Shown piece by piece: positions 3,244-46,459 of a DNA stretch of 64,000 nt. The notes beneath the pieces were generated by a model that did no database searches, was not told the DNA's origin, and worked only from the letters and a program-made list of their open reading frames with translations. Source of the stretch: Gracilaria domingensis (taxonomy: Eukaryota > Rhodophyta > Florideophyceae > Gracilariales > Gracilariaceae); assembly GCA_022539475.1 (NCBI GenBank), contig VCMS01000033.1, positions 1-64,000 of the forward strand, in the 5' to 3' direction. The position numbers and the translations under genes are program-made. The first letter of the stretch is position 1, and each line of letters opens with the position of its first letter.

Positions 3244-3312
3244 GATGCTGCTTAAACTGCAGCGAACGAGATAATGCGGTGGCAGACAGGCGGCAATAGC
3301 GAACGACAGCCG

Positions 3313-4541: not shown

Positions 4542-4546
4542 AGGAA

Positions 4547-6065: not shown

Positions 6066-6600
6066 GGCGAAGTGTCGCAGTAACCCCTTCTCGGGTGATG
6101 ATGTAGGAAGAACCAGACCACAGGACGTGTGGAAAGTAGCCCTCCCATGAGGGAACGCTAAGTATGATACCCACTCGGATTGACCTTCGCGAGCTCGCGC
6201 TTGCGACATTACACCCAGAAGCATGGGTAGCGCATGGAACCCGCACATGCGGAAAATATCCAAATTTTTGGAGAGCCCACCCGCCGCCGCCCGAAGCGAG
6301 CAACCCGAGATGCCAGTGCTTCGGCGACCGTTGCGCAAAGGCTCACTACTACTGGTGCTCCGTGGCACGCGCCACGCGCGCACCCCCGCCGTCAACCAAT
6401 GGCGCACCCCGATCTTGGGCGTTCCGCCTCCCCCCTGCCCAGTGAGTGTAGCGTGCAACGTTCACGGCCGCGCGCGTTCTCCCATGGAAACGGAATGAAG
6501 GAGGGAAAGAGAAAGCAACCGTTGCCCGGTGTGACCATTTGGGGAACACCCTGGAGGGTCTATAGTACTACGGACGCCTCAGGCGTGGCAAGGAACCCAC
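6066..6600. other. GC-rich stretch, no gene recognised
   Basis: Several overlapping open frames exist on both strands, but their residues are arbitrary (Arg/Pro/Ala-rich) and none resembles a known family. It could be worn internal sequence of chromovirus B or old intergenic DNA. Confidence 0.5.
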
Positions 6601-6993
6601 TTGGGTAGAAATTTGCCGCCAAAATGCGAAGTTAGGACTAACCCGACACGACGGGTAGAGTGCTACTGGAACCCGCTGAAGGTGAAGGTTCGAAGCCTCT
6701 TTGCCGGCCAAAACCCACGGTTGGGACATCTATCTGGTACTCCCATGGAGGGGAAGTCTCAGAACACCAAGGAGACCGGTACTTACTCACAGGAGTTTGT
6801 GGTGGACCGTATCGTGAGCCACACTTATACCCTCGATGGGATACTACTGTACCGGGTTCGGTGGTATGGGTACGCTCCTGAAGTGGACACGCAGGAACCC
6901 ATCGAACACCTACCCAGGTCTAAAGTTATTTCTTACCGCCGCAGGACACGCACGGCTCTCCCTCAAACGCTGGATAACGCCCAGGTGGGCTGA
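6601..6993 (+). pseudogene. Chromovirus integrase C-terminus with chromodomain
   Basis: The frame carries a chromodomain at roughly residues 57-107. It contains FVVDRIVSH, a Gly, LYRVRWYGY and then DTQEPIEHL, the usual order Y/F-x-V-x-x-I, G, Y-x-V-x-W-x-G-Y, D-T-x-E-P. In chromoviruses this domain ends integrase and steers insertion into chromatin. The upstream integrase is missing and the first 50 residues have no clear match, so this is a fragment. The usual Trp of the DTWEP motif is Gln. Confidence 0.75.
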
Positions 6994-7357: not shown

Positions 7358-9208
7358 TTAGCCACCCGTGGCGGGTTCGGCACCGCCCATATTTCCCTGC
7401 TGGGAAGGGGCGCTGTTCGCGTACAACGCCGCCATTCGGTGAGGGTCCGTCATCCCAGGGGGAATAATTGCTCCTAAGCTCACGAGGGCGTCCTTAAGGG
7501 CCTGCAACTGAGGAGGTTGCGGCACACCCTGTGAAGGTATGGCAATCTGCCACCCCGTCGGGGCTGCCTGTCCACCATTTGGTCCCGCAGGAGCATCCCC
7601 GCCTACACCAGGCACTACCACCAATAGTTAGGCCGCACTCGCTGGAGCCACGTCCTCAACGTCCAACGCTGGATCGTCCCACGCCACATCGGGCACGTAA
7701 TCATCCGTGAATACAAACCCAGTGGGGTGTCCAGGCAGAATTGGTCGCTGTGTTCGCAAAAGCGCCTCCGCATAGTGTCGGGTGATCATGTTACCGTGCC
7801 GTGGGTTGTAGTACACGAAGTTAATAGTGGGATGCTGCCTACCAGGCAAATGGTCGTACTCGCGCACGTTACCCTGTCGCTCGGGTTGATTCTCTACCGC
7901 CACCAGGTTCCAGTTGATCGACTCGACCGTTCCCAAGAGGGACCTAAGCTCATCCGCGTTGTTCTGTGACCCCAGGGGTATCGACAAGTCTAAGCCACGC
8001 ATGGCCATGATCAACCTAGGAGGTAAATACCACAAGCGGTGATGATCATAGATCTCCCACACGAAATGCGCAGCTATGCGTGCCGCCCATTCGGCGAGAA
8101 CCAATGACCAATACCCGGACTGCGGGTTCGCAATCAATTTGGACCCGATGTAATGGATACAGGGTAGAAGCTCAGCATAGAACCCACGAGCTACCTCAAC
8201 CAGGCTCCACCACGGATTTAACGGAACATACCGGCCAGACTTGGCGTTGTTGCAAATACGCTCAATCTCCACGTTAGAGTACGGAACCAGAAGCCCGTGA
8301 CGGGTGCGTGCCTTGCGCTCGAACTTGACTGGCAGTTCGAACCGCTGCTGGGTGTCGTATCGGCTAATGTACCGGAACTCCGCTCGGAGAATGGGTCTCT
8401 CCCAGCAGAGCATATACGGCTCTCAACGGACGATTCCTCTAAAGGACTGCTCGGGGAACTCCGCCAACGCATCTCCGTATGAGACCTCACCATATGTTCG
8501 GTAGAACGCCGGGTCAAACCCATAAGACGCGGGTATCAAATGCTCGTTGCGAGTTCGCTCCGCACCTTGGTAGGCCAACTTCGCCAAGCCCGCTCGGGCG
8601 CTGTCAAGGGATTCACCGCGAGATCGGTATAGAAGATACGGCGGTATCGCAATGCGCCCACGCCAGTTCGGGCATCGTACGAGTTCCACTAAAATCTTAC
8701 CAGGGAGCTTGCCGTTCTCCACGTAGGAGTTGATGAGCGCATCATTCTTCATCGCATCGTGGTGGAACCACTGAGCCCGTGAGTGGATCAAACTATCCGT
8801 CTTTGGATCGCGCACTTGCAAAGACTCTTTCGAGATCCACCCATCCGGGGTCGCGGTCAAGAGCATCGCTTGCTGCGAATTCTACGCCACGGCCGTAGGA
8901 GAAGGACCCTGTGTCGGGTGTGCGTGCATCGGAGCGTTTCTCTGAGGAAGCGCGGCCGAAAGGAACCCACCGACGTACTGCGGGTGTTGCTGTTGCCCAG
9001 CGGGGGCGAGCGCATTGCTTTGCTGTCCGGTACCGGAGGAAGAAGGAGCTCCCCCGATGGGGTTGGTTAGAAACAGATTCATCCCAGACGCAGAGAGAGA
9101 GACAGCGACGGCTGATGTATGAGACCTCGGGGGTGTAGTTGCGACGGGAGCTGATATCACCTCGAGGGTGCGCTGTATGCGTGGAACCGGAATTTCGGTG
9201 ATATCCAT
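7358..9208 (-). pseudogene. Antisense ORF of chromovirus B, with in-frame stops
   Basis: Read from ATG 9208-9206 the minus frame runs to a TAA at 7358 with three in-frame stops: TAG at 8884-8882, TGA at 8425-8423 and TAA at 7630-7628. There are no frame changes. The part after the TAG is clearly homologous to the 532-residue ORF of element A. Shared blocks are GWISKES, VRDP, FYRT-GEV-YGD, MLCW-RP-LRAEFRY, FERKAR-RHG, EWAAR-AA and PGR-HPT. The part before the TAG (108 residues) is Pro/Gln/Ser/Ala-rich. The TAG is shared with element A, so only the TGA and TAA look like decay. The gene lies opposite to pol and starts 82 bases from the inner edge of the LTR. I recognise no family. Confidence 0.85.
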
Positions 9209-9278
9209 TGCGGGATGCCCACCTATTTAAGGCCTTTCCGTCTCGGCCTCGCGGCGTCACGACGGCTACCCCTAACTA

Positions 9279-9290: not shown

Positions 9291-10282
9291 TGTGGAGCAA
9301 ACCCGATTCTGAGGGTGTTTGACAAAGAAGCTTTTCATACATGAGCGATACGCCAGTGCACGTGGCACTTGACATTATGAGATGCATCCCCTATGACAGT
9401 CTTCAACCGTTGGTTAATTTAATCTTAATTAGCACCCATAGAGGGGCGTGCATGTGCCAAGGGCCCTGGCCGGGCGTGGACGTGGAAGTGGATGGCTAGT
9501 GCACCAGTGGGGTATTTTGGGGACTATTTTAGTTTTTCTTTGTTTTGTGCATCCTGACAGTGTGGTTGCGTACGTGTACCACCCGTATGGGTGTGCAATA
9601 TTGTAATCATTCAACAGACCCTGCACCTGGGGTACTTAGAGGTGCAGAGGTGGCTGAACACCATCTGATGGTAAAGGAATCAAGCTTCTCCTTCGAAAAC
9701 TGCCACTCGGATCAGAGGGCACTTGAGACTCATCTTGAGTGTGGGCTCTAGGCGCTACTGCCCTTGCCGGTGTACTACTTCGCCCGGAGTGTCATATCAA
9801 GAGGTATAAGTACGCGTACTCTCCTTGGGACGCGTAAGGAATCTGTATATACCGTGTGGTATTGACGTCCACTATTTCTATGGATTCCTGATTGCAGGAC
9901 AGATCTCCGCTCCAACATTGGGTTTTTTCTTGGTTCTTTTCGTGTCTTTTCTCCGTAGTCGGGCCTGTTGCCTGCGTGTGCACAGCTCGCGTCTCCTCTT
10001 TGGACGTATCTCTCTTTCCCTTGTTTCTTGGGCTACGCCTCCTTCCGGAGTGTCTGGCTCACCACTTTTCGGGTATTTCTCGCTTCTACACCATTCTTGG
10101 CTGGTGATTCTCCTGGTATTGGACTTTCTGCATTCACCTCTGTAGGGTCTCCGCAGTACACTACTGGTCTTACACCCAGGTCCCCGGTGTCAACAGAGGC
10201 TCGTCCACCGAGTTACCATCCCCTAGGGAGCAGGACTTTGGACATCCTGTGCGTGTTTCACCCGTCCTGGGTTTGCACCACA
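9291..10282 (+). repeat. 3' LTR of chromovirus B
   Basis: 992 bases from TGTGGAGCAA to TTGCACCACA, with short inverted ends as in the other Ty3/gypsy LTRs here. The last 50 bases align with the end of the element A LTR in the same element orientation. A TATA-like TGTATATACC at 9844-9853 may be the LTR promoter. An ORF of 106 residues inside it (9825-10145) is not credible as a gene. Confidence 0.8.
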
Positions 10283-19106: not shown

Positions 19107-21482
19107 TTACTCTTTGACATCGCCGCCCCCCTCAAACAAAGCACGCATTATACCAGCGTCTGGGAGTGTTTCCGGGACAGCATTTTCTCCCACACCATCA
19201 TCCCAACCAGCTATGTCATCTTCGTTGGGGGCTTCTTCAATATCTTCGTCCGTAGTGGTATGCGCACCAAAATAAGACACAAAGTCTTCAGACAGCGCTC
19301 CGATCCCACCAGTAATAGCGGCTGAGGTGTAAGTCCGACAAACCTTCGTTGAGGAAGACCCGCGTGTAGAAGTTAGCGCGTTATTGAATGCGCAGAACAT
19401 CATTTTTTCCACCTTCATAGGATGTAAGCGGTTACGCGTTGGCGTTCTGATCCTCCCCTGAATGCTAAAACTTCTTTCGACACTCGAGGAGGACGGACTC
19501 GTGCGTAGAACTCGTAGAGCAAAGTCCTTCAACGTCGAAGTACCTCCAAACGGTATCCAGTAAACTACTGGTATGTTCTTAAAGGCCATTAAAACCGGTC
19601 GCTGTTCAGGCCGGTCCGCCTGCGATCTCCAGGACAGCCTTGTAAAATTGAATGCCTCGAAGAGACGGTCAACTGCTCCTTTCTCACCCCCTGCGCTTGG
19701 AAGCGTTTGCGTAGGCGGAAAAATAGAAGACTTCACGTACTTCCTCATGTGCACCAAAACGTGAGATGTGTGTGGAACGCAGTTCTCATTGAGGCTCCTT
19801 ATGTCCAGTAAAAATGCTACGGTATGTAGTGATGTAAGCAGGGGTATCTTACAGGCTCACCCAGCCCGGCGTGGTCGAAAAACGCTTAGGAATTCTTCCT
19901 GACGTTCCGATGTAAAGAATGGAGTGACAGGGAGCGCAATGAGGTGTTGTCCTAGTTGTCACGTTGCCGGATAGACCTCAGACAGTATCGAACTGTCGTC
20001 ATCAAAGATACGGAGGTATTGTCTGACAAGGCGCAAGATATGATATATATCAAGGCACTTTTCGAACAAAGATTCGTCCCTCACCGTAGCTTCGAACATA
20101 TCTCGTTTGTGCTTCTGTCTCCCACCATAGAGGGAAGTACGAAAGTCAGAGCAATGAACTAAACTCTGGTAGACACTTTTGCCCCTTAAAAATGAATGGA
20201 GCATGCCTTCGGAGCTCGCAAAACGAGTTTGAGCCATTCGCATCGGTAAGACGGCCGTTCGCAACGGCTTGAGACGCCCGTATTGATCCGTTTCTCTGAT
20301 CGAAGTGGTGTAACCATTATTGCGGAGGTTACAATTGTGTTGCTCTTTCAGCTGTTTGAAGCGAAGATAAAGCTTCGAGTGCCTTCTTAGGTCTGTGACA
20401 ACAGCCGAAACAGAGCCCAGTATATCGGCTATCGACGGCAGTTCTCCAATATCCTGCATCAACAGGTTGGAAACATGGGCTTGATCTTGCGCTGAAATAA
20501 TATGATCGAACTTCTTAGATAGTTCTTCTTTGGCTTTCACACACGAGCTAGCATTATCGCTAACAACTGCGCATATGTTCTTCATATCTCCGAACTGCGA
20601 AAATGCAGAGCTCACGACGCTCGCATACAAATCGCTATCGCAGCAAAGAGCCCCGGTATATATAGACCTTAGAAAAAATGTTTGTAGCGCTCGGTCCACT
20701 CCAGTTATTGTGAGCAAAACGTTGACTACGTTTTCCGAATTGGAGTCAGTCCAACCGTCAAACGTTAGTGTCCCAAAAGTCTGTCGGAGAGAGGCGGTTA
20801 TATGAGATTTGACCGTAGCAAGAGATTTCTCGTAGTAGGCCTGAAACCGATTTCCGCCTATCTGTGCTGCTGTCCGGACGTCGTTGACGAATCGGTCATC
20901 TAGAAGCCTGACAATTTCGAGAAATTCCTTCTCTTGTTTGGCTCTCACCAACAAACTGAACGGAAGCATGTTGTTAATCACCATTCTCGTAATAAGTTCG
21001 TTCAATCGAGACCGCTTCTGCTCTAGTGCTTTCTTTGTTTGCACTAGAGCGGACTGTTCTGCGCTTGTGCGCACGACAGAAGCTTTTGTCCGGACAGCAG
21101 GCCTTATGAATGATGCGCAAGCCTCAGTCTCCGTCGATTTTCGCTTTGATGGAGTCAGTGGCACGCCAAAGCACTGTGCCGAACTTCCCATTCTCTCGTA
21201 CGCCCGACGTAAGGACGGTACCTTCAGAAGGCGTTGCAAAGTTTCAGGGGTTGTAAACGGACACTGTAGGAGCTCGTGCCCTAATTGTGTCGTATTGGGT
21301 GTAGAGGCACGCAATCTCCATCCGCACCCGTTACAAGTGGTATGGACACTTTCACCTGATGTCTGGGGATCATCAGGAGCCTGTAAGGAGAAGCACTCCG
21401 TACGCCACCACGCCTTCTTGCGACCAGTTCTGCGAGAGGTTGTGGATTGCGAGGCTGATGTTTCGACATGGATGGAGGTCAT
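19107..21482 (-). pseudogene. hAT-family transposase with two in-frame stops
   Basis: The frame from 21482 carries a BED-type zinc finger (CNGC ... LGHELLQC), the DDE-core signature TFDGWTDSNSENVVNV, SDNASSCVKAKEEL, and the hAT dimerisation block SSVERSFSIQGRIRTPTRNRL. These transposases cut and paste DNA elements. The frame never shifts over 2.4 kb but is interrupted by TGA at 19961-19959 and TGA at 19859-19857. The second falls where hAT proteins usually have a Trp before the PLLTSLHTVAFLLD block, so TGG to TGA is likely. I could not find terminal inverted repeats or an 8-bp duplication around it. It may be a decayed element or a decayed domesticated copy. Confidence 0.88.
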
Positions 21483-25344: not shown

Positions 25345-26529
25345 ATGAACGTCATCATCGGAGATTGGGACAAAAGTCACGTGTCATCCTCTGAAGTCAG
25401 CAGTTCACTGAATATCATTCCTCGATCAGCAAATGCATCTATATTTCCCTCTCCCACAAACCAAAATGATCCAAATCTCCCTAATGCTATCATTATCCCA
25501 ACAACAGAGTCGCAGGAAAACAATCATGTCAATTCTACAACTTTGCCCAGAAATTCTACTGCATCACACTTTAATGAACCCCAATCGCAGATCCAGCCGG
25601 CTTTATCTGCGGAAGCGAGAAATTTAATGTATCGACATACTCCAAGCAACACTGCAAAGTCCACAAAAACTTCGCTTTACGCATTCGCTGAATTCGTGGT
25701 GGAGGATTTCAATCTGCTAAGGCCGGAACTACTTGCAGAGCTTAAGGACAAAAGAACCGCTGCTTGGCGTCGTCGCAGCTTGAGGGAACAAGCCGTTGGG
25801 CTCACCTCTATATATTTGTTCCGAACAGAAAATGGACACAGTCTGCCCAAAGACACGTCCATCTGGACCGATCGACAACTGAAACGGGTAAGTGAAGTCA
25901 TAGTCGAATTCATTGCAACGCGGAAGCGCAAATCAGACAACCAAGATCTCAGTCCACCTACTCCGAAAACATATATTGCAGAGTTGCAAAGAGCATTCAA
26001 ACAACACTGGGGATACGACTTGAATTTATTCCCTGAGAAGGTTTTCGCAGATCCAGAACGTGGGCTTATGACTGTACTGGATAACAAAATACGTCGCCAA
26101 CAGTCCCAGGGAGCTTGTCGAAAAAGTCATAACATCCTGTCGGAACAGAACATTCGAGATCTTTACAAGTCATCCTTTCTGTCAAAGGCACATCCCCGTG
26201 GATTCTTGACAAGGATAATATTTAACGTGGCCTTGATGACTGCATTCCGAAAGTCAGAGCTCGGGGAATTACGATTGAAGGACGTGATCAAAGTATTGGA
26301 TGGCAGTGAGACCTTATATCGTATTGTTGGGCGCATTGGCAGTGTTGACGGGGCCTCAAAGACGCAATCTGGAGGTCTAAAATGGATTGACACAAAACCG
26401 AAAGAAGTTTATATATGGAATCGCGTTCAACTCGACGGCATCCTTAATGTTTTCGAGGATATTGATGAATACCTTGCAATTGTTTCGCGATTCCGGAAGC
26501 CAGATGACAAGTTCTTCTGTGCCGTTAAC
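25345..26529 (+). CDS. Crypton-type tyrosine recombinase, 5' part (split by element A)
   Basis: 395 codons, uninterrupted up to the insertion point. The N-terminal half has helical SAM-like features (KSTKTSLYAFAEFVVEDF, SPPTPKTYIAELQRAFKQHW). The catalytic half begins with MTAFRKSELGELRLKDV, holding the first catalytic Arg. The protein resembles the DUF3504/Crypton family of tyrosine recombinases, which move DNA by strand exchange without an RNA step. The remaining catalytic residues are in the 3' part at 38346-38921. Removing element A and one copy of TTAAC joins the two halves in frame, giving 586 residues. The gene was therefore intact when it was hit. Confidence 0.85.
26525..26529. repeat. 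Target-site duplication TTAAC (left)
   Basis: TTAAC directly before LTR start 26530. The same five bases follow the other LTR at 38341-38345. Confidence 0.95.
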
Positions 26530-27503
26530 TGTGGGGCAAACTCGGAAGAGTGAAACCCACCAGACTGTCCAAAGGTCCGCTCTCGTGAGAGATGGCACAC
26601 CAGTGACAGAGCCCTCTGTACCACCGTAACTCGGTTGTAAGGCCGAAGTGGCAACTGGATATACCTACAGAGGTGCTAGGCCACGTCGTGAGGAAATGAT
26701 GAGAAACTCCAGAGATGGGGTGGTATCGGCAACGATGAAACACGACCAACGACAGGTGTAGTCCCGAGAGGGAAAGCAACAGAAAACAACAACCAAACAA
26801 CACCCACACGCGACGGGTAGGGCCTCCTCGGCACTGTGCCCGGAGCGGGGCGAGATTCTCCAACGGTAATGCACGGGTTTTCGTAAACACGGCAAAACTC
26901 TATACAGAGTCGGATCACTTCGTAATCTAGTCCTATACCTCCTCGGTACGACCCTCAGGTCCCGACATCAACGACAGATGTTCCTCAAAGGTACCGAGAT
27001 GGTAGGACCACCGTAACCAGACTTGGCTATACTCGCGAGAGTGATAACCCACGTAGGCGGTTGGCGCCAGAGCCTCACTCGTGTAGAGTCCACTCAGGAG
27101 AGCGCTACTCGACAAAGAGTTCACTTAGAAGTGCTCGGGTTGACTTTACAAAGGTGCTCGCGACGACGAGGTCGAGCTCACCTAAGTAGGTCTAAACTAA
27201 CTATATACACGTGGTGCACACCCGCAGGGGTCCCTACACGTGGCTAGCCCAGTGTCAGGCACCTCAGGTGCACTATCTATTATCCCGTAATATGCACACA
27301 CACGGTGGTGTAGTACAGGCGTCCACCTAGCGGTATTGGCCAGCAATGGCAACCCTGATTACAGGTAACTGTGGGAAAGCCACTCCAAAAGTAACCGCCA
27401 AAATTGGGTCCAACTCATAACTCTTCGGGTGCATCCTCGTATCACTCCCCTGAGTATATGAGGCGCATCATCCTGATAACCACACAAATTGCGTTGCTCT
27501 ACA
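26530..27503 (-). repeat. 3' LTR of element A
   Basis: 974 bases, starting TGTGGGGCAA and ending TTGCTCTACA on the plus strand, so the ends are short inverted repeats. A TATATA at 27202-27207 could serve plus-strand (antisense) transcription toward 27583. Confidence 0.95.
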
Positions 27504-27518
27504 TCTCCCCCTCCTTAG
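27504..27518 (-). other. Polypurine tract of element A
   Basis: On the minus strand CTAAGGAGGGGGAGA lies directly against the LTR start, in the position for plus-strand priming. Confidence 0.8.
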
Positions 27519-27582
27519 AGCCGAGAAGGACTTCGAGGCTGAAGTTTTGTGCGAAACGCAAGTACGTAAATACGTCACAGTC

Positions 27583-27822
27583 ATGAGCGGTACCAACTCC
27601 TCGGTTTCTATACCTCACAAGCGCGATACACACTCACGCAAACAGAGTATTCAAGTATCCAAACTCGATCAGAGTACATCATCTGTCATTCCGATGAACC
27701 CGAATCAGTTTCCTCATCACCCGACGGGTCAGGCGAGCGCGTCGAACTACCCTCAGCCGGGTTCTGCGACGGCTCCACTGCCTCAGTCTCAACCGATGGT
27801 CCCGGTGAACGTTCCGTTATAG
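27583..27822 (+). CDS. Antisense leader ORF of element A, ends in conserved UAG
   Basis: 79 codons rich in Pro, Gln, Ser and Thr, running opposite to pol and starting 79 bases from the inner LTR edge. It ends at TAG 27820-27822. It stays in frame with the 532-residue ORF that begins five codons later. The equivalent ORF of element B ends in the same TAG, followed by the same AATTC and by CAAGCGATG. It may be the N-terminal part of a readthrough protein or an upstream ORF controlling reinitiation. No domain is recognised. Confidence 0.6.
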   Translation: MSGTNSSVSIPHKRDTHSRKQSIQVSKLDQSTSSVIPMNPNQFPHHPTGQASASNYPQPGSATAPLPQSQPMVPVNVPL

Positions 27823-27837
27823 AATTCAGCGCAAGCG

Positions 27838-29436
27838 ATGCCACTGATGGCGAACCAGGCTGGTTGGATATCGAAGGAATCTCTCGCAGTGCGCGATCCA
27901 CTCCGTGATGGGTTTGCGTTCAGCCGTGCACCGTGGTTTCATCCGGTAGCTGTTAACGATGACACTCTCCTGGAGTCGTATGCCGAAAACGGCTTCCTAC
28001 CGGGCGGTCTGCCGTTAGCGGTAGTGCAATCCCCAGAATGGAAAGTTCGTATAGCGATCGACCCGATGCTCCTCCGGTACGATACCCGCGAGGGTGAGAA
28101 CCTGAACACCGCGCGCGCGGAGCACGCGAAGTTGGCGTACAAGAGACTCAGTCGAGTGCACCTTGAGCACCTGGTTCCACCGTCATATGGGTTCGATACT
28201 CCGTTCTACCGTACTTTCGGTGAAGTCCGATATGGAGACAACTTGGCGACGTTCGACCATGCGCGGTACGCTGGCGATGGCCCGACCACATCGAGGTTGA
28301 TGTTGTGCTGGAATCGGCCCATGCTCCGAGCGGAGTTCCGTTATCTTCGCAAGAACGCTTCCCAGGGTGGGTTCGTCAACCGCATTCGGTTTGAGCGGAA
28401 AGCTCGTTCCCGTCATGGGTATCTGATTCCGTATCCGAATATCGAGACCGAGAGGTACAGACCGCAGGCCTTTGTTGGACGGTTCCCTCCTCTACCAGAC
28501 TGGTGGCGTGATGTGGAGGTACCCAAAGGGTGTTTTGCAGAACTGCCTCGGTGCTTGAGTTACATCGGTTCCCGATTGATCAACGATCCGCATTCAGGAT
28601 GGTGGGGTCTCGTAGCCGGCGAGTGGGCGGCACGCGTAGCAGCGTTTCTCCTCTGGGAGGCTTACGACAACTACCGTGTTTGGTATATTCCGCCGATGCT
28701 TCCCAGCATTATCCGCTCGCTGGATTTGCACACTCCTTTGGGGTCCGAAGACAACGTGGATGAGATCCATTACATCTTGGATGTTATCGATGGAATCGAT
28801 TGGGAAACGGTGCCCCGTTCGCAACGCGGGAAAGGTCATCGTCGTCACTACGACCGCTCACCCGGTAGGAGACATCCCACCGCAGGAGATTTCGTGTATT
28901 ACGACCCATGGGAGGGTACGATGATGACTAGCGCGTATGCCGAGTGGGCAGCGAACCAGCCACGGTCGATTCTAGACAGTCACCCCGTTGGGTTCATGTT
29001 CAGTGACAACTGGGTCGCCCCAGTGGATCTGGATGATCCGAACATGGATACTGGTGAAGAGGCGGCGGGAGCACTCGTCGAGATGGACCAGGAGTTGGTG
29101 AACGACCTACCGGCGGCGAATCAGGTGTTGCACGCCAGCGGCGGGGTACTCCAGGCTCCTGTGGGTTGGAATTTTCCGACTCAAGCGAGTGTTCCGGTGG
29201 TGGGTCCGGCCCCTGTAGCGGCTACCGTTCCTTCGGTCCTTTCGGCCCCGACAGCTCCGGTCGCTCCGCGAGATTCTCCGGCGAACATCGCGATGTTGCG
29301 CGCCAGTCTCCAGAACGCTGGAATTATCGTGCCCGATCATCTCACCACTATGGCAGGGATACTGGCTTACGCCGTTCCGCACCTTTCGCAGGGTCCCTCC
29401 GGTAGCAGCGGTGCCGGTAACTCATCGGGGGTGTAA
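27838..29436 (+). CDS. Antisense ORF of element A, unknown 532-residue protein
   Basis: One uninterrupted frame on the strand opposite to gag-pol, between the end of pol and the 3' LTR. It has an ordered, Trp/Tyr/Arg-rich globular part (about residues 1-400; WISKES, FYRTFGEVRYGD, MLCWNRPMLRAEFRY, FERKARSRHGYL, GEWAARVAAFLLWEAYDNYRVWYIPP). A Pro/Val/Ala-rich linker and a short helical end (MLRASLQNAGIIVPDHL) follow. A homologue sits in the same place and orientation in element B. Extra ORFs between pol and the 3' LTR, some antisense, are known in plant Tat-lineage elements such as Retand and RIRE2, but I see no similarity I can name. It is not env-like: there is no signal peptide or membrane segment. 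Confidence 0.85.
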   Translation: MPLMANQAGWISKESLAVRDPLRDGFAFSRAPWFHPVAVNDDTLLESYAENGFLPGGLPLAVVQSPEWKVRIAIDPMLLRYDTREGENLNTARAEHAKLAYKRLSRVHLEHLVPPSYGFDTPFYRTFGEVRYGDNLATFDHARYAGDGPTTSRLMLCWNRPMLRAEFRYLRKNASQGGFVNRIRFERKARSRHGYLIPYPNIETERYRPQAFVGRFPPLPDWWRDVEVPKGCFAELPRCLSYIGSRLINDPHSGWWGLVAGEWAARVAAFLLWEAYDNYRVWYIPPMLPSIIRSLDLHTPLGSEDNVDEIHYILDVIDGIDWETVPRSQRGKGHRRHYDRSPGRRHPTAGDFVYYDPWEGTMMTSAYAEWAANQPRSILDSHPVGFMFSDNWVAPVDLDDPNMDTGEEAAGALVEMDQELVNDLPAANQVLHASGGVLQAPVGWNFPTQASVPVVGPAPVAATVPSVLSAPTAPVAPRDSPANIAMLRASLQNAGIIVPDHLTTMAGILAYAVPHLSQGPSGSSGAGNSSGV

Positions 29437-30598: not shown

Positions 30599-33500
30599 TT
30601 AACACCGGTCGGTAACATTGAGCTGATCTACCGCTTGCGGTTCTGCGTTCTCCGGAAAGCCCGGGTCTACAGATACTGTCTTCTCCGCTCTGCGGGTGGT
30701 GACCTCACTCAGTTGTGGTGTTCCCGAGGGGGTTACGTTATCCACAGCGGTGTGTACCCCCTGGGTGGGTCGTGTCGTTTCCAGCGCATTGCTCAACGAA
30801 CTCGACGGAGTATCACCACGAGGTACAGCGCCTCGGCGCATCACAACGCTATCGGTAGAGACCGCGAGATTGGTTGCGGTACCTTGCGACACAGTGTGAC
30901 CGTGCGACGCCAGTGTAACGGGTTCCGTGCTTTCCTCCCCCTCCTTAGGCGGTGGCACGGGAGCCACGACGTCCGGTGGGGGGTCAACTCTAGTTGAGTT
31001 TTCCTCTTCATCTCCTGCAACGGGTTGTGCTACCCGCGTGGGTGATTCTGACTTCGGTAGATCCGATAAGCCGCGATCAGGGCGGAGAGTCGCAGGGCGC
31101 GAAGATACGACCTGTTCGTCCCCTGTAGCTTCACCCAGTTGGGTGTTAACGTGAACGTAGGGTGGTGGGGCCAGCGCGACACGGTCTAACGATATCCGTT
31201 CGTGGAGATTATTGATATCCAATACTACGGTATCGTCCGTGACGGAAATAACCTTGTAGGGTCCTTCTGCGATAGGCGAGAGCTTGTGGCGGCGTTCCTT
31301 CTCCGGATTATAGTATTTTTTGCGGAGAAATACCATATCGTCTGGTTTGACCTTTGGTAATGGGGTCTTAACCTTCGCATCGAAGTGGCTCTTATAAGCG
31401 GCGTGCGCCTTATCCATCGCTGTGCGAGCGACCGGTACCATTTTGGTTAACCAATCCTTCCAAGCGTTCCTGTATAACCCAACAGACGGGTACGTAGAAA
31501 GCGTTTCTTGAGCCTCGATTGCAACTGGTGGCGGTACTCTTGACAATACCAACTCAAAAGGGCTAGCTTCGTTACCCGTTGGACTTGGGTGTTGTACGCA
31601 TACGTAATAGCGTCCGTATACAAATCCCAATCCTTAGGATGATCTGCCACATAAGATCTTAATGCATTTAGCATGGTACGGTTAAATCGTTCTACCTGAC
31701 CATTTGTTTGGGGGTGGTAGGTGGTCGTAAATAGATTCTTGACACTCAAGATCCGACAAACGTCCTGGAAAAACTTCGACGTGAACTGTGAACCGTTATC
31801 TCATAATAGATGAACCGGTGGACCGTACACAAAGACCAAGTGGGTGACAAAAGCTTGTGCAACCACAGTGGCCGTAATCCGTTTCAGCGGGACTGTCCGT
31901 ACCAACTTAGAGAACCGATCGGTGATAACCAGAAGGTATCGATTACCTCTTGCGGTTCTGATCAATTCACCTAAGATATCGATAGCGATAAACTCCAAAG
32001 GAGACCGTGCTGGGAACAGCGTTAACTTCTTCGAGTACTTACGAAGTTTCACGTTATTCTTAGCGCACTCAGTGCAAGAGCGTCGTACTGCGTAGCAATC
32101 CAATGCCATTGACGGCCAGTAAAAATCCCTACGCAGGGTCAAGTATAGTTTTCGACCTCCTGGGTGGGCTCCTACATTCACATAGTGTGTCATCACCAAC
32201 ACACGGTTTTGCAGCGAGTATGGGACCACAATTTGGGTATACGCTTCAACCAACCTAACCAGGTATCCCTGATCGTTAACCTGAAAAGGTATACGATCTC
32301 CTCCATTGAGACGAGCGCGAATTCGCGTACAAAACTCATCGGTTTGCTGTTCTCGGATCATCTCCTTGGGAGTGATGGGTACAAAAGATCCAGTCAAGGG
32401 ATCCAACTTCTCAGAAGTGAGCAGGATGTCGTCACAGATGTCATCCGACAAGGATTCGACCCAACCTGCTTGTTCTTCCACCATAAAGCATGGTATGTCC
32501 AGATCGTCAACTGGTGCCGCTTCCGCATCTGTTCCGAAGCGGGGGAGTGCATCTGCCTGCAGATTCAACGTTCCTTTTTTGTACGTAACTGTGAAATCGA
32601 ACTCCGATAACTTCAAGCGCCAACGTATCAAGCGTCCTGATGGTTCCGAGATTTCCATGAGCCATCGGAGAGATGAGTGGTCCGTATGTACCTTGAAATG
32701 GTTGCCCATAAGATATGGCCTCAGTGTAGTTAGAGCCCATACAACGGCTAAGCACTCTTTCTCCGAAACTGAGTAGTTACGTTCGTGTGCGTTCAAGGAT
32801 CGCGACCAGTATCCAATTGGATGTCTCACGCCGTCTTCCGTGACCTGAAACAGGGCGCAACCAACCTGGTGTGCACTGGCATCAGTGTCTACTTCGAATG
32901 GAAATCCTAGCTTAGGCAAAGCCAAGATTGGCGGTGACGTTACTGCGTCAATTAATGCCGAAAAAAGCAGACGCTTCCGCGTCGCCTAGGGGTTCCAGTT
33001 GAACTGGTTGAAATTTTCTCAAAAGATGGTTAAGAGGGGTCGCAATATCTGCGAAGTTCGGGACAAAACGCCGATATACATTACAAAGACCCAGAAAACT
33101 GCGGAGTTCCGTTTGTGTCGTAGGGTGTTTCGCTTCCTTCAGCGACTTCACGCGAACTGCGTCAACTGAGAGCTGTCCAGGTCGAATGATATGCCCTAGG
33201 TATTTGACAGAATCTGTGAAGAACTCGCACTTCTTGAGTTTCAGCGTAATGCCCGCGTCCCTGAGGACTCTCATGACGTCCCGGACGTGTGTTAAGTGGT
33301 CATCAAGGTTATCGGAGAACACGATGATATCGTCAAGATACACCAAGCAGGTCTTCCACTTGAATCGAGCCAAGAGGATATCGATAGCACGTTGAAACGT
33401 AGCCGGTGCGTTGGTTAATCCGAACGGCATTCGCTTAAACCGGTACAAACCTTGGTGGCACACAAAAGCAGTTTTGTCCTTATCCTTTTCACGGATCGGA

Positions 33501-35008
33501 ACTTGCCAGTATCCCCAATTGGCATCCAAGGCGGTGAACACTGTAGCACTCCCAAGCGAGTCAATGTATTCGTCCATCCTGGGTATGGGATAAACGTCTT
33601 TGACGGTGACCGAATTTAGACGACGGTAATCAATACAGAATCGCCATGATCCGTCCGCTTTTGGGACTAGCACCACGGGTGAGGCCCAAGCGGATTGAGC
33701 CGCCTCTATGACGCCAGCGCGTAACATCTTCTCAACCTGAGATTGCTCTTCTTCTCTAGCTTTGGGACCAGCCCGGTATTGGTGTTGGGAAATGGGGCTA
33801 GTACCTGGAAGTAGGTCAATACGGTGTTCCGTGATTCCAATTGTCCCGAACGATCCATCCCACATGGGTGTGAACTCCCTCAACATTTCTCTTAGCTTAC
33901 CTCTATGAGATTCAGGTACATGATCAAAATTCAACTGTTCCAGTTCCTTGACAGGGTCTGTATCTTCCGTTCCTGGTGGCAACGCTTTACCCTCGGTGGG
34001 TGCCAGCGATTCGGTAACTTCGCTCGCCGGGGTAACCGATGCGGTAAAAGCGGTTTCCGCTGATCCCTCCCCCGCCTTAGCATCGGTTATACCGAGAACA
34101 TCCGCAACGGGTATCTTCGTCGGTACGATAGCAGCAGGGTGTGGGAGAGTGGTACCAAGGATTTGGTTTTTAGCTAACCACTGTCGGGTTGTGCCAAAGT
34201 TGGCGACCAAAACTCTGAATGGTTTGTCGGGTTCCACCGAGATTACTCCGTTCGCCAAAGCGAGTTGCTTCTGATCATACAATGATGGCAATGGTTGTAC
34301 CACACGTAGACCAGACTGCTTAGTAGTTATGGTGACCCAAACTTGGGATTGCGCAGGGATTGCGATGGCATGAGCCACATGGAGCTTAGATGATACCGGG
34401 TCGACGGTTGGAACTTCCTGTACAGCAGGGAGCGGGACGCGCTTGCGTGTAGCTCTCTTTAGCGGTTTCCTTACAATCGGTATTTCGGAACCATCATCCA
34501 TGGTAATAACTCGAGCTCGAGGTCGAATCGCTTCAACAAAACGATCACAAAAGTCACAACCGAGTATCACCGGTGCGGCAATGCTTTTGCAAACCATGAA
34601 ATCCACTTTAACCATACAGGTTCCTAATCGTACCATGAGAGGTATGTACCCAAAAGTACGCAACGGGTTATTGTTGGCATCCGCGATGTCCAAACCTGGA
34701 CCATGACGAATTTCATCCCGTAGCGCGGCTGGCACCAACTCAAGGTGAATCAGGTTCGGTGCAGCTCCTGTATCCAACACAGACAACTGTCGAACCATGA
34801 ACTGGGTAGACAAGCCAAGATCGGCATAAACTTTGTAGTTTCTCTTGGCCATCACATGAACTCTTTCCGGAATACGGAGATTACGGGACCGTATCCACGG
34901 ACGACGTAGAACCGAAAGGTGTTCTGAGCTCACGTCAGTTGTAGCCGCTATCCTTGAAAGGATTCTAACAGCTGGGGAGCGAAGCTGTGACGCCTCGGGC
35001 GCCTTCAA
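30599..35008 (-). pseudogene. Ty3/gypsy Pol (protease-RT-RNase H-integrase), interrupted
   Basis: Domains in order are aspartic protease (LDTGAAPNLI), reverse transcriptase (FCIDYRRLN, ALDANWGYWQ, YLDDIIVF), RNase H (FEVDTDAS), integrase with a His/Cys zinc site (CTECAK), core residues in AIDILGE, DNGSQF and NGQVERFN, and a 200-residue Pro/Ser/Thr/Glu-rich tail. Breaks are a frame change at a run of six T between RT and RNase H (32961-32966), a TGA (31803-31801) just before the second catalytic Asp of integrase, and a one-base change near 31560. Homology continues on both sides of each. No clear chromodomain remains in the pol frame. Confidence 0.9.
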
Positions 35009-35160
35009 CTTCGGCTCGGAAGGCGCCCCTCCCGTAGGGGAAACTCCCGAAGTCAGTTTTTCTGAACGGGGCTCACCGAATTCGGTGCGTGAACTCCGTT
35101 CGGGGGGCCTAACTGAACCGCATGCGTGGGTACTTCGCCTTGAACCTGGTTCGAAGGTGC

Positions 35161-37122
35161 CTATGCCGGAACGGAGGGCTGAGCATAAACCGGAACCGGT
35201 AATCCCAGTTCAGCTCTGGCCTTATCATATTCCTTTCGTGGAACAGATTCCTTTTCCTCGGCCGTGAGGGCGTCGTAATACCCAATAATTTTCGGCCTGT
35301 GCGACGGCGGAAATACGCACTGCGTCGATACGTGACCTGGAAGGTAGCACTGGTAACATATGACCGAGGCCGGTTTGTCGCGAGGGCGATTGTCCACTCG
35401 ACGTTGTGGTGCTGTGTCCTTCCACCCTGGACGGTTCAGACGCGACGAATTGTTAGCGTAAGGCAGCGGGGCTGCAGGCCCCCGGACACCTTGGGCATAC
35501 AATTCGGGGTCTTCTTCCGTGCTCGGAATCGAGGTTGACGGCAGGTCCGTAGATCCGTAAGAATCGGGGTTACTTCCGATGAAGTGGACGTTATCAGCAT
35601 CACCGACAGCGGTTTCACGTCGCAAAACCGACATCGATCGTGACGAACTCTCCGCGAGTAGCGCTTTCGAGCGGCGCTGCCCCGGGTTGCGGGCTCGATA
35701 CGTCTCTCCTTCCGCCTGAGCGTAATTAACCACCTCTAGGTACGTCATTCGACGTTTTTCCTCGCGTCGGCGAGCGACCAACGACCGAATGGTGGGGTCC
35801 AAACCATCAACAAACATGGTACACCGCTCCTGTGCGGAATACACATTACCACATCGGTGAAACGCTTTGTTCAACCGCGTTGAATAAACCGTTTCAGATT
35901 CTCCACTATTCTGTCTAGTGTCGCGAACAGCAAGAGTAGCGCTGTAGATCGCGTTGGAAGTCGCGTACGACTTGAGAAGGTAGTTCACGGCTTCCGGCCA
36001 ACACGTGACTCCTCCTTCTGAGGCTCTCGAGGTTCCTCGAACTGAGTTGTACTGATCTTCCGCAGTCCCTGTTAGGAAGTACGGCAGTGCCACATATGCC
36101 TGTGCTTCACTCATACCGAGTATATCGGCCTCCTAGACGAACCTGGCAAGGAAATCCAAGATAAGGATAGGATCTTTCCCCGAGAACTTCCTTGTTTCAA
36201 GGGTAACATTCAACCTTCGAATGTAGTCCTTCACCTTACCGGTTCCTCGCCAGGAGCGATTCGAAGTAACATCTTTCAACCGATAATAGCGGTACGACAA
36301 CAGCTTTGCGTAGAGCGGGTCCGTCGGCTTTAACTCTTTGAGTCCCAAGTGGCGCCGTCCTTTCACGCGTGATCTCATCACTGCCTGAGTAGACTGCGTC
36401 GCTTTCGAACGTGTCGAACGTGACCTATGACGGTTGTCATCACTATCAGATGAATATGACGAACTGTCTTCAGTCATGCCGCTCGAGTCAGAGCGCGATG
36501 AATCCGAATCGTAGTGAACTCGTTTTGGGTGTCGACGTTTCTGCTTCACCGAACGATGGTCTTCATCTGCAGATGGATTTCCTTGAGGAACCTGTGCGTC
36601 CACAGCTTCATCTATACGGATTGTATCCTCCAGCGTTTCCAAGCGCGAACGAATTCGACCGATATCGGTGCGCATTTCCTCGACAAATGCCCGGTACTCC
36701 GTGACGAAGACGTCTGGGGTACCCAGATTTTCCATAATGGAATTCACGTCCCTTCTCAGAAGACGTAAGTCTCCTGAGACATCCCTCACCTGGGTATTAT
36801 CAACCTGCGTCCTCAACGAGGTAACATCCTGTAGGAGTTCCACGTGAGCAGCGTGATTAATATCCAAGCGGGATTCCAACCTAGCCAACTCGGCTACGGT
36901 AGCAGCGTTAGGGTTAACCATGGATGGTGTCTCAACGACGGGTTGAGCAGAACCCACGTTTTCCTTAGGTGCTTCCGTAACTGAGCGCGTTCTCCGGGGG
37001 CGGGGTACGACCTCAAGAGGTTGCGCCTCATCTGGGATAGACCGGGACGTCGGTGCAACGGGTGGAACCGCAGCTGACGATCGCGCTGAACCAGCTCGAG
37101 AACCTCGAGGCGGTTGCGGCAT
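35161..37122 (-). pseudogene. Ty3/gypsy Gag with one in-frame TAG
   Basis: Gag packages the element RNA. I take the start at MPQPPRGSRAG (37122), although the frame is open to 37191. Next come a Pro-rich N-terminus, a heptad-rich coiled-coil region (residues about 70-180), an Arg/Ser-rich hinge, the capsid-like helical region and a CCHC knuckle (CYQCYLPGHVSTQC). A TAG at 36135-36133 lies between LDFLARFV and EADILG. The related Gag of element C has Gln there, so CAG to TAG explains it. The frame is otherwise open to 35161. Confidence 0.88.
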
Positions 37123-37345
37123 ACTGAAAACCAGTAAGCAATCTGATCCAGATGATCCAGTTAAACTCGTACACGAGTCTCCAAAGAACAAGAAAACTCA
37201 ATAAACCTTCTCGGTAAACCACCACGTCAGCGGTTCACGTTCAAAAATTGTCAACCTCCAAAACTCTAAAGAGTCCCCTGATGGTTGTCAGAAAACGGTG
37301 ATCCGTCAACAATCAAGTCAATTCCACGACAGTGTCCTAAAACGG

Positions 37346-37366: not shown

Positions 37367-38340
37367 TGTGGGGCAAACTCGGAAGAGTGAAACCCACCAG
37401 ACTGTCCGAAGGTCCGCTCTCGTGAGAGATGGCACACCAGTGACAGAGCCCTCTGTACCACCGTAACTCGGTTGTAAGGCCGAAGTGGCAACTGGCTATA
37501 CCTACAGAGGTGCTAGGCCACGTCGTGAGGAAACGATGAGAAACTCCAGAGATGGGGTGGTATCGGCAACGATGAAACACGACCAACGACAGGTGTAGTC
37601 CCGAGAGGGAAAGCAACAGAAAACAACAACCAAACAACACCCACACGCGACGGGTAGGGCCTCCTCGGCACTGTGCCCGGAGCGGGGCGAGATCCTCCAA
37701 CGGTAATGCACGGGTTTTCGTAAACACGGCAAAACTCTATACAGAGTCGGATCACTTCGTAATCTAGTCCTATACCTCCTCGGTACGACCCTCAGGTCCC
37801 GACATCAACGACAGATGTTCCTCAAAGGTACCGAGATGGTAGGACCACCGTAACCAGACTTGGCTATACTCGCGAGAGTGATAACCCACGTAGGCGGTTG
37901 GCGCCAGAGCCTCACTCGTGTAGAGTCCACTCAGGAGAGCGCTACTCGACAAAGAGTTCACTTAGAAGTGCTCGGGTTGACTTTACAAAGGTGCTCGCGA
38001 CGACGAGGTCGAGCTCACCTAAGTAGGTCTAAACTAACTATATACACGTGGTGCACACCCGCAGGGGTCCCTACACGTGGCTAGCCCAGTGTCAGGCACC
38101 TCAGGTGCACTATCTATTATCCCGTAATATGCACACACACGGTGGTGTAGTACAGGCGTCCACCTAGCGGTATTGGCCAGCAATGGCAACCCTGATTACA
38201 GGTAACTGTGGGAAAGCCACTCCAAAAGTAACCGCCAAAATTGGGTCCAACTCATAACTCTTCGGGTTCATCCTCGTATCACTCCCCTGAGTATATGAGG
38301 CGCATCATCCTGATAACCACACAAATTGCGTTGCTCTACA
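37367..38340 (-). repeat. 5' LTR of element A
   Basis: 974 bases, nearly identical to 26530-27503. It is followed by TTAAC and the interrupted recombinase gene. Confidence 0.95.
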
Positions 38341-38345
38341 TTAAC
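38341..38345. repeat. Target-site duplication TTAAC (right)
   Basis: Matches 26525-26529 exactly. Confidence 0.95.
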
Positions 38346-38921
38346 CACAGAGGGGCGTTGCCGCAAGCCTTTTTTAAGCCACAGAATGTCAGCGCTGAGA
38401 CGCTTGTTCGGTATGTCACCGATGCCTGTGAGGCAAATCATATTACTGGTGCGGGATCGAAACTTTCTATGACGCTGCATGGTTTGCGTGCGACTGTTGT
38501 AACGCAGCTTTTTGGTGCTGGGATGGACGACGCTAGCGTTGCAAAGCGTTCTGGTCATCGGGACCCAAGGTCATTTGCGGCTTATACGAATTTGCGTGGA
38601 TCACTTGGCAAGCCCCAACAAGAAGGAATACTGGGCGGCTTTGAAGAGCCAAAGGCAAAGCGCGCCGTATCTGTGAATCCATGCAAAGTCGGGAGTACGC
38701 AATCAGAGGATCTATGTTCATTTGAGAAGGAGAATTTGGATTTGGGTTTAGATTCTGGACAAAATATGGAGAAGACTGGATTCAATACAGGCCGGAATGC
38801 TGCTTTGACGTTGCCTACATTCTTGCGAAATGAGGGAGCTTTGAATGGAAATGTAACAATCAATGTGAACTTTGGGGTTGGTGCCGGCAAGATTGGACCT
38901 GGATGCGGAGAGGGTTTGTGA
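38346..38921 (+). CDS. Crypton-type tyrosine recombinase, 3' part
   Basis: 191 codons that continue the frame of 25345-26529 after the insertion is removed. It carries the other catalytic residues of a tyrosine recombinase: LHGLRATVV (His-x-x-Arg), SGHRD (His) and FAAYTNLRG (the Tyr nucleophile). A charged, Gly/Asn-rich tail follows. With the Arg in the 5' part the R-HxxR-H-Y set is complete. The gene was probably functional before element A landed; the C-terminal half now has no start of its own. Confidence 0.85.
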   Translation, partial: HRGALPQAFFKPQNVSAETLVRYVTDACEANHITGAGSKLSMTLHGLRATVVTQLFGAGMDDASVAKRSGHRDPRSFAAYTNLRGSLGKPQQEGILGGFEEPKAKRAVSVNPCKVGSTQSEDLCSFEKENLDLGLDSGQNMEKTGFNTGRNAALTLPTFLRNEGALNGNVTINVNFGVGAGKIGPGCGEGL

Positions 38922-40119: not shown

Positions 40120-42855
40120 CAATTGTTCACCACAACAACCCTCCTCGCTTTGCACACAATCCCCAATTTCTCCCGACCGTAATGACTCCTTCTCTTCTCA
40201 TTATCATGGCGAAGATGCCAACGAAGATGAGGATGTGGTCGATGCTGACGTTCAAGTATAGCTTGAGGACGAGCTGGACCAGGGGGATCAAGATGCCCAA
40301 TACGCTTCCGGAAACAGTTCAAACCACTCACAACCACTGCCAAAAGGCCACCATCCTCATAGTGATAATGATGATCAGTCGAACATAGTTCGCAGGAGAA
40401 GTCGCTCGCAACAGAAATTTGTTATCCCAGAAGATATGCGTGGCGAAACCCGCTATTTCCGTCGTTCCTCTCGCTCAAGGCATGCGCCAAAGCGCCTATC
40501 AATTTCCCCACCAAACTCCCGCTGTCTCTAGCGTTGTCAGTGACTCTGACTACAATGCTAATGATGGTACGTTAATTTATCTTTCAACTAATACTGCCTT
40601 TCGCGCTAACTTCTGTTCTTCTCTAACACATGTCGTCTCTGCATTCTCCACATCTTTTCTGACACATCTGACAAAGAAGAGGACGAAGATGAAGAATATG
40701 AACGCCTTGATGATGACGATTTCACTTTAGAATCAGGTAGGAAGACAAGATCTCGCGCAAAGCGATCATCGTCTGGGCAGGCCAGTCGTATGAGACGATT
40801 CGAAACCAGTGACGCTGATGACCGCGTCGACGATAGTACCGCATCTTCATCTGACTCTGACGGTGATTTGCTCATGGATGGAAGTCCTGCAAAACTTGCT
40901 GCGAAGCGCAGGCGCAGATCATCGCAACATCCGAAGAAACGACGGAGAACAAATTCCGTTCCCGTCGATGATGAAGCATTCCGAAGTGCGGGCATTAATA
41001 GTCAGACAGGTGTTACGGTGAATTACTTTGAGGGGGGACGATCTGTCTAAAGAAGAAGCTGCTATTCTTGCAGCGAAGCAGGCTGAGGAGGCTGCAGATG
41101 CCAGCATACCATGCGTTGACCAAGTTTTGGACTATCGAGTTATGGGTGGGAAACCGAAAGCGGGTGAAGACGATGGACCTTACACGGATTTTCGGTCTCC
41201 AATGTAGAATTCAAGATCATTTGGACTAACGCTTTGTTCCGGAAGTGCACGTTGAAAACATGGAATACTTTTCAGTCACTGAAAGGTGCGAAGAAGGTCA
41301 GCAACTTTGTCAAGTCGGTTGAAGAAGTACGAAAACAATCTTGAGCCATGCGACTCCAGAAGATATTGAGGACCTGCGCGTAAATAAGGAAGAAAATAGA
41401 GAGCTCTTCGGAAGCTATGAGGTTGTTGACCGCATCATTGCCGAGAGCGAAACTGAAGAGTTGGGTACGAAGTACTTGGTGAAGTGGTGTATTCTCTCTC
41501 TTATGAGGATTGAACTTCGGAGAAAAGTTCTGATCTTAGTACTGAGGCTGACATGAAAGCCGTAGATGCGTTCAATGACAGAGAACAAGCATTCCTGTCT
41601 ATGACAAGTTAAAAGCGCTTCAACCCCTTCAATGTCAAAGAAGATAGGCCTAAAATGAAGCGCATGACTGAGCAGCCAAAGTTTCTTCATGGAGAAGGGC
41701 GAACTCTTCGACCATATCAGCTTAACGGTCTTAAATTTCTTGATATTGCGTGGACGAAGCGCAACAACGTTATTCTCGCAGACGAGATGGGTCTTGGAAT
41801 GACTCTGCAAACCATATCCTTTTTTGGCTGGTTGATGTATGCCCTTAATATCCATGGTTTGTTTCTTGTTGTCGTACCACTGAGCACCATAGCAGGATGG
41901 GTTCGGGAATTTAGGCAGTGGCTACCGGACATGAACGTCATATGCTACGTTTGGAATGCCAAATAGGGCCACGATTCGAGAGCATGAGTTTTTCTCATCA
42001 GCCAAAGGAGGCACTGAAAAGTTCCACACGCTTCTTACAACACCAGAGCTTCTTATGCAGGACGTTGACTATCTTGGTGAATTTAGGTGGTCCATGATTG
42101 CCGTGGACGAAGCTCACCGTTTGAAGAATGAAACAAGTGCTCTGCACACAGCAACAGCTAGTCTGCGCTATGAAAACCGTCTGCTAGTCACCGGAACCCC
42201 ACTGCAGAATTCAGTGCGCTGGTTATGGGCGCTGCTACACTTCCTGAACCTAACGAAGTTTCCTAGCGCGGAAGCATTTGAGGAACGCTTTTCTTTTGCG
42301 CCGTTGAGAGATCCAAAGCGTGTAAGCGAGCTTCACAATACCTTGCGTCCCTACAGTAGCGTCGTCAAATGGGTGATGTCGAGAAATTCTTGCCGAAGAA
42401 AACTTATGCTGTTCTTCGAGTGGTAATGACTTCCGCCGAGCAGCAATATTTCCGTTGGTTACTAACTAAAGATATAACACAGTTGAACGAAGCTAAAAAA
42501 GCCAGAGGCATTGGTAACACTTCTAGTATCCGAAACCTTCTCATGGAGTTGAAGAAGTGCTGCAACCACCCGTATCTTTTTCCCAACTATGCAGATACCT
42601 CCACCCCAAATACTGTGGAAGAATTAATTCGTGCCTCTGCGAAGATGATTCTTTTGGACAAACTTGTGCTTCTCCTCAAGGAAAAAGGACATCGAGTGCT
42701 TATTTTTTCTCAAATGGTGAAGATTTTGAACATACTTCAAGACTACTGTCGAATGCGGCTGTTCGCATTTCAACGACTTGGTGGAAGTGTTGCGAACCAA
42801 GTTCGCCAGCACGCAGTCCAACACTTTAATGCCCCAGACTCGACTTACTTTACTT
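40120..42855 (+). pseudogene. CHD1-like chromatin remodeller, decayed and truncated
   Basis: CHD1 proteins slide nucleosomes using ATP. The N-terminal acidic/basic region (RRRSRSQQKFVIPEDMRGE) carries a TAG at 40259. A clean intron follows (40567-40676, GTACGT...AAAG), then more acidic and Lys/Arg-rich sequence. Next are a worn first chromodomain, a second one (YEVVDRIIAESETEELGTKYLVKW) and the SNF2 ATPase (LRPYQLNGLKFL, DEMGLGMTLQT, VVPLSTIAGW, VDEAHRLKN, LVTGTPLQNS, LMELKKCCNHPYLFP, RVLIFSQMVKILNIL). The sequence stops at HFNAPDS, in the middle of the helicase C domain, where element C begins. The Walker A Lys is Met (GLGMT). The frame shifts at six G (41032-41037) and several more times. 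Confidence 0.88.
40567..40676 (+). other. Spliceosomal intron in the CHD1-like gene
   Basis: 110 bases from GTACGT to a pyrimidine-rich ...ACAAAG end. Removing it joins two acidic stretches in frame (DYNANDG/E then EDEDEEYERL). Confidence 0.75.
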
Positions 42856-42896
42856 CGGCTCAGGAGACGCCCCTCCCGCAGGGGGAACTCCCAAGT

Positions 42897-45029: not shown

Positions 45030-45190
45030 ATTAACAACGAGAAGTCTCGGTACTCCAAAGGGTAAGTAACGAACAACAAATAGAACACTCTAGAGAGTCC
45101 ACTGTTCCACAGTAGCTTCCGAAAAACCAATTGGTCACTAATCGTGAGACTCCTCGACAAGAACGAGAACGAAAGGAAGAATCCAACCCG

Positions 45191-45208
45191 TTCTAAGTCG
45201 GGAGACCA
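45191..45208 (-). other. tRNA primer binding site of element C
   Basis: Same 18 bases as in element A, two bases inside the LTR edge at 45211. Confidence 0.7.
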
Positions 45209-45210
45209 CT

Positions 45211-46189: not shown

Positions 46190-46459
46190 GCATCTACCTC
46201 TATACCCTTATGTAGAGCAGGTTTCGGACACCCTGTCGGTGCGCTTTCGGCGACGCGGCTCCTGTTTGCCCACTCGTAGGATTGCACCACAAAAAGTGCT
46301 TCATTGTTCCAACGCTCTTTAGCGTGTAGTTCCTCGTACACCATTCTATCTCTATTAGCCAGCTTCACCTGCCTCGCAACACTTTTATCCTGAGGCTCGA
46401 GAGCAGACAGAATAGAATCAAAATCACTCTCATGTGTAGCGCTTAGAAGCTGTCCCTTG
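46190..46459. other. Spacer, no gene seen
   Basis: 270 bases between the LTR and the stop of the spliced gene. A minus-strand ORF crosses it in the frame left open by an unspliced intron. Confidence 0.5.

Follow-up and report, generated by a model that had tools for sequence, protein, structure and literature searches.

Plant retrotransposons are known to carry antisense extra open reading frames (ORFs) in the interval from pol to the 3' LTR, with gene23 of maize Grande, rice RIRE2, and Silene Retand as examples (PMC7264820). According to that account, these ORFs occur in most copies, no role is assigned to them, and a promoter is reported upstream of Grande gene23 (PMC7264820). The TRP28 ORFs of Retand are antisense as well; the protein that they encode is conserved, is described for almost every recent copy, and was suggested to be a DNA-binding regulator (PMC11963269). 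Among retroviruses, HTLV has an antisense promoter in its 3' LTR (PMC7264820). The oomycete gypsy elements Chronos and Archon carry a chromodomain or a second RNase H (PMC5348765).

Here, we describe an antisense gene in Ty3/gypsy elements of the red alga Gracilaria domingensis. The window is the whole 64-kb stretch of DNA that was analyzed, which belongs to contig 33. The genome searched comprised 77.9 Mb in 680 contigs, and light-harvesting and phycobilisome-linker families are present in it. The first-pass annotation of the window had proposed a conserved antisense accessory gene in a gypsy lineage, and this was supported by the copies of the gene, the families that carry it, and purifying selection on its protein. 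We are highly confident of this structural claim, namely that the antisense accessory gene is real and selected.

Element A, on the minus strand, is a Ty3/gypsy LTR retrotransposon, as seen from its RT, RNase H, and integrase order, its LTRs, and its target duplication. The two 974-bp LTRs differ by five mismatches (969/974 identical), and TTAAC target duplications bracket the element at 26525-26529 and 38341-38345. No Pfam gag model matched its gag, and the pol of the window copy is split over several frames. In another copy of the same family (L031), an open pol stretch gave RT, RNase H, H2C2, and integrase matches. Pfam detected no chromodomain in the integrase end of element A or in the open pol stretch of L031; as had been noted before, element B has one. 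The flanks of element A, at 25345-26553 and 38241-38918, gave tyrosine-recombinase (Phage_integrase) matches with E values of 0.018, which is below the cut-off, and 2.3e-7, so element A may have inserted into a tyrosine-recombinase gene. The window copy is about 157 bases shorter than most other A copies examined near 29917, in the stretch that separates the antisense gene from pol. The coordinates of the features are collected in Table 1.

Table 1. Features of elements A and B in the window
Feature	Position	Strand	Remarks
Integrase end and chromodomain, element B	6535..6990	+	PF00385, E 6.8e-7
Antisense homologue, element B	7358..9208	-	Probable start 9082; this copy has three internal stops
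TATA-like box, antisense gene of element B	9224..9230	-	TTAAATA; +61 from LTR edge
3' LTR, element B	9291..10282	+	992 bp; LTR-sized matches elsewhere in the genome
Inverted pair TCATA/TATGA, LTR of element B	9335..9380		41 bp apart
3' LTR, element A	26530..27503	-	974 bp; plus-strand reading TGTGGGG..CTCTACA
Inverted pair, element A	27415..27461		TCATA 27415-27419, TATGA 27457-27461, 42 bp apart, in the 3' LTR
Polypurine tract, element A	27504..27520	-	Minus strand CTCTAAGGAGGGGGAGA; within the leader of the antisense gene
TATA-like box, antisense gene of element A	27566..27573	+	GTAAATAC; A/T run starts at 27567, +64 from last LTR base
First ATG, element A	27583..27585	+	Start in the first-pass annotation; probably not the start codon
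Antisense gene, element A	27694..29436	+	Probable start MNPNQ at 27694; TAG 27820-27822 breaks the window copy; open part 27838-29436, 532 codons
pol, element A (RT, RNase H, integrase)	30602..35209	-	Pfam matches; window copy broken by frame changes and a stop
gag, element A	35164..37197	-	Two open stretches with a stop between; CCHC knuckle by eye
5' LTR, element A	37367..38340	-	974 bp
Inverted pair, 5' LTR of element A	38252 / 38294		Same pair

Element B is represented in the window by the end of its pol, its antisense homologue, and its 3' LTR; the remainder of its pol was not found in the 64 kb. Its region matches another B copy (L050) from 6068 on. L050 itself holds an insertion at 1026-4950, nested in the family B element; its open frames, of 880 and 439 codons, have no Pfam match. 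The 880-codon frame may be ParB-like. On contig C144, at 55979-91735, family B LTRs are spaced regularly at about 11.59 kb, as in a tandem element array. Elsewhere in the window, a copia-type pol was recognized by eye on the minus strand at 1-3426, with a partial copy on the plus strand at 4463-5266 (98% inverted match). Pfam also identified DUF659, SNF2, DDE_1, and protein-kinase frames at 19959-21482, 41956-43103, 48082-49134, and 56853-59882.

The frame first reported in element A, 532 codons on the plus strand at 27838-29436, does sit between the end of pol and the 3' LTR, opposite to pol, which is the position and direction of an antisense ORF of the aORF-3R type. Element B has a homologue in the same place and orientation, 43% identical over 595 columns (E 7e-129). 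The distances given from LTR to first ATG, 79 bases in A and 82 in B, also agree with the coordinates. The claim that the window frame is intact did not hold, since 27583-29436 is a 618-codon stretch with one internal stop, an in-frame TAG at 27820, and only the shortened 532-codon frame is intact. Therefore, the argument that the antisense gene stayed intact while gag and pol broke fails for the window copy.

The true start of the antisense protein is probably the second ATG, at 27694 in A and 9082 in B. The first ATG is probably not the start codon because, in family E, it precedes the TATA box of the leader. From the second ATG, the proteins begin with MNPN in A, MNLF or MNPF in B, MPNP in C, MNPN in D, and MSNA in E.

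The antisense gene is general and not peculiar to the window copy. The best 81 of 1307 candidate places in the genome were scored for it, and 60 of these 81 had no stop over the matched part, so the gene is not a product of chance. Among the 28 family A copies examined (the window copy and 27 others), 22 were fully open, which probably overstates the share across the genome, since the 27 were the best entries of lists ordered by antisense-protein score, and this favors intact copies. In the 27 other copies, the distance from the 3' LTR match inward to the gene start is 77-78 bases (two LTRs are cut), and pol (20 copies) or pol-side flank (7 copies) lies beyond it. There are at least 105 pol places, and at 57 of them one of the best 81 of 1307 antisense-gene candidates lies no more than 9 kb away on the opposite strand, most often at a distance of 2518 bp. 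Three of the other 48 pol places have the family D gene, and one (C139) has the gene in a frameshifted state.

Five Ty3/gypsy families (A-E) carry a homologous gene, and A and B are the two in the window. Families B, C, and E were assigned by sequence, and D by position and leader. Family B pol (L051) is about 64% identical to that of A over protease-RT, and the 3' LTR match of this place takes in the start of the antisense gene. In family C (L020 and L027), the antisense protein is 43% identical to that of A and pol is 65.5% identical over protease-RT; the best 40 of 349 family C candidates by score all span the LTR and the gene start. Family D was found at three places, each with the gene on the strand opposite to RNase H-integrase (76-77% identical) and 2968 bp away from it. 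Family E is represented by its gene in L053 (40% identical) and, over RNase H-integrase, by a 57% identical pol in L052. Between families, the antisense protein is 40-43% identical and RT 64-66%. By these sequences, the antisense protein is less conserved than RT, yet it has been retained.

Selection was computed for families A and B and for one pair from family C. The pooled pN/pS of family A was 0.254 (378 pairs of 28 copies), which speaks against a ratio near 1 across many copies, the outcome that the first-pass annotation had named as counting against the gene. Without the window copy, the pooled value was 0.219. The window copy against the rest gave 0.51, a value in keeping with decay of that copy since it inserted. 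Variable columns in family A numbered 41, 40, and 81 at the three codon positions. When variants were counted against the commonest codon, omega was 0.25 for shared variants and 0.41 for singletons. In the 20 A copies with pol, the antisense gene had an omega of 0.22 (shared) and 0.24 (singletons), and part of pol had 0.42 and 0.68. Constraint on the antisense protein, as N/S, is thus at least as strong as on this part of pol in the same 20 copies. Family B pairs gave ratios of 0.29, 0.30, and 0.57. The family C pair gave 1.03 from two synonymous and six nonsynonymous changes; with eight differences this value has little weight, and it lends no support to selection. Purifying selection therefore acts on the antisense protein in families A and B.

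The leader, from the LTR edge to the probable start, has its longest A/T run at nearly the same place in all families, starting at +64, +61, +63, +63, and +61 in A to E. A/T runs of at least six within a 7-base span in all five leaders occurred in 0 of 20,000 shuffled sets, a statistic that was picked after all five leaders had been seen. Since the five families are related by descent, the leaders are not independent events. For family D, the box (expected at +58 to +68) and the start motif were predicted from the other four families before its sequence was read, and both were found. The boxes of A and B are poor TATA matches (6/8), tied with other places in the leader. The exact TATA-like string of A is kept in 24 of the 27 other A copies and absent in three. 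Taken together, the leader sequences suggest with good confidence that the antisense gene has its own promoter, with a TATA-like box inside the LTR edge. The likely promoter, first proposed in the 3' LTR, is placed in the internal leader just inside that LTR; a site in the LTR may still contribute.

Such a site could be an inverted pair. TCATA (-87 to -90) and TATGA (-46 to -49) are reverse complements that lie 41-42 bp apart within the final 90 bp of each of the five LTRs. In a search of the 160 bp before the LTR edge, minus the terminal 12 bases, they were the only 5-mers common to all five families within a 4-base span. No such common 5-mer appeared in any of 1000 shuffled sets, and the pair was present in all five in none of 2000; this motif was chosen after inspection of the LTRs. 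The LTRs of the five families otherwise show short or weak matches, the best being A-B with 69% over 152 columns (E 0.001). The pair is kept in 25 of 27 other A copies and missing in two. Followed by the polypurine-tract edge, it occurs 410 times in the genome, compared to 0 for the reversed control, and most of these occurrences are presumably copies of the same families. We consider the pair a candidate footprint. Shared descent is the main caveat, and the conservation falls short of proof of binding. A related gag (46-61% identical to that of A) was also seen at 43035-46190 with an LTR-like edge and the pair at 46104, 40 bp apart. A third homologue of the antisense gene was not found in the window.

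The protein has a disordered N-terminal tail, an Arg-rich and mostly helical core of about 375 residues, and an acidic C-terminal tail with a helix near its end. The core is 373-378 residues long in eight of 10 distinct proteins (351 in P0003, and 327 in P0005, where the start is missing), and several cores are near neutral in charge. The acidic tail is present in 11/11 rows. The profile and fold searches suggested by the first-pass annotation gave no significant match in Pfam, PHROGs, PDB sequences, or by fold, and scans of viral and bacterial/archaeal contigs yielded no relative. Word-limited searches returned six relatives, all metagenomic. The earlier view that the protein resembles no named protein was borne out, as the family is of no kind that could be named. 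A known DNA-binding fold was not found in these searches, nor was homology to other retroelement proteins. HBZ of HTLV-1 is a bZIP protein with an acidic region; Pfam gave no bZIP match in the antisense protein. Ty1 p22 is a control factor derived from gag/capsid. Evidence for such an origin was not found here, since hhalign gave a probability of 0.1 against the element's own gag (a gag profile of two sequences, one gag part). An Env-like protein would be encoded in the sense direction, unlike this one.

The explanation that we prefer is an accessory gene with its own promoter whose protein regulates its own element in trans, and as a whole we judge it evenly balanced between right and wrong. 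Transcription of the gene would be driven by the TATA-like box that lies some 62 bp inward from the LTR edge, and the TCATA/TATGA pair near the end of the LTR would probably help. The protein would start at the second ATG, work in trans in the nucleus, and regulate the expression or copy number of the element. Since the pair stands in the 5' LTR too, it would be the obvious candidate target. The most likely role of the protein may be that of a regulator of the element's own expression, which we put forward tentatively. One A copy with a 1536-codon open pol carries a frameshifted antisense gene, and this counts against the preferred explanation, as do the near-neutral charge of several cores, the search for a DNA-binding fold that found none, the poor TATA matches of A and B, and the A copies that lack the pair or the exact TATA-like string. 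A more elaborate form, which is unlikely to be right in full, would be a two-way switch: a DNA-binding protein of new fold, made from the antisense gene's own promoter, would recognize the pair in both LTRs (41-42 bp, about four helix turns) and thereby control expression in the sense direction as well as its own, much as an anti-silencing factor or a phage repressor with its operator does.

Another possible explanation, about which we are rather doubtful, is that the protein is a particle or intasome factor that either aids assembly, entry into the nucleus, or the choice of target, or restricts assembly, with no transcriptional action. A constraint no weaker than that on part of pol in the same 20 copies would fit such a factor, the Arg-rich core could hold RNA or nucleoprotein, and pol is otherwise ordinary. 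However, no relation to gag was seen, and the conserved LTR pair would be left unexplained. A separate promoter and opposite direction would also make the dose independent of gag-pol, which would be unusual for a structural part. The antisense RNA itself could matter instead, through interference or double-stranded RNA formed with the sense RNA, with the protein secondary. By layout, an antisense transcript would be able to base-pair with the 3' end of the sense RNA, and roles of this kind are discussed for plant elements (PMC7264820). This is quite improbable here, since it is the amino-acid sequence of the coding frame that is under selection. Four of the five other frames have ratios near or above 1, and the fifth (minus strand, third positions in common with the gene) has 0.47 and 0.22 but carries stops. 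In addition, 31 protein columns, the first Met among them, are invariant across 10 members. Least probable of all, to a degree that makes it very improbable, is a gene captured from the host or another mobile element and kept for a host or foreign function. The lack of homology to other retroelement proteins in our searches would agree with capture, but the database, fold, and contig searches described above gave no source for it, and the same place is kept in five families.

Whatever its role, the antisense gene is conserved at the protein level across five diverged families within a single genome. Its role is open to direct tests in vitro and with reporters because the core is compact and foldable, the putative promoter keeps a fixed distance, and there is a putative binding site. 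The case would extend antisense accessory genes to red algae and would suggest that a retrotransposon lineage can keep a self-control gene apart from gag-pol expression. The protein family and promoter layout appear new. In the titles and abstract beginnings of the open-licence literature searched, no antisense ORF in a red-algal element was reported, and no paper in that literature combined red algae, retrotransposon, and antisense ORF.

The antisense layout is known from plants, and ours is a red-algal case. The layout is the same as that of the plant antisense ORFs, whose hosts are land plants (PMC7264820). By their published descriptions, Grande gene23 and RIRE2 share this layout, as does, outside plants, Boty of Botrytis, whose additional antisense ORF likewise sits between pol and the 3' LTR (PMC7264820). 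The Chronos and Archon elements are likewise Ty3/gypsy with gained modules, one group with a chromodomain; unlike here, an antisense ORF is not mentioned in the main text (PMC5348765). HBZ of HTLV-1 is antisense and at the 3' end as well, although it is driven from the LTR, whereas the TATA-like box here lies outside it. None of 10 members matched Transposase_28 (PF04195), the Retand TRP28 model, at E 0.5, assuming that the model is present in the Pfam copy used. Retand is nevertheless alike in layout and in having a conserved antisense protein (PMC11963269). Where the Retand account describes long tandem arrays (PMC11963269), element A has one 36-bp repeat, and the elements described here have a TATA-like box whose position is fixed, together with an inverted pair in the LTR.
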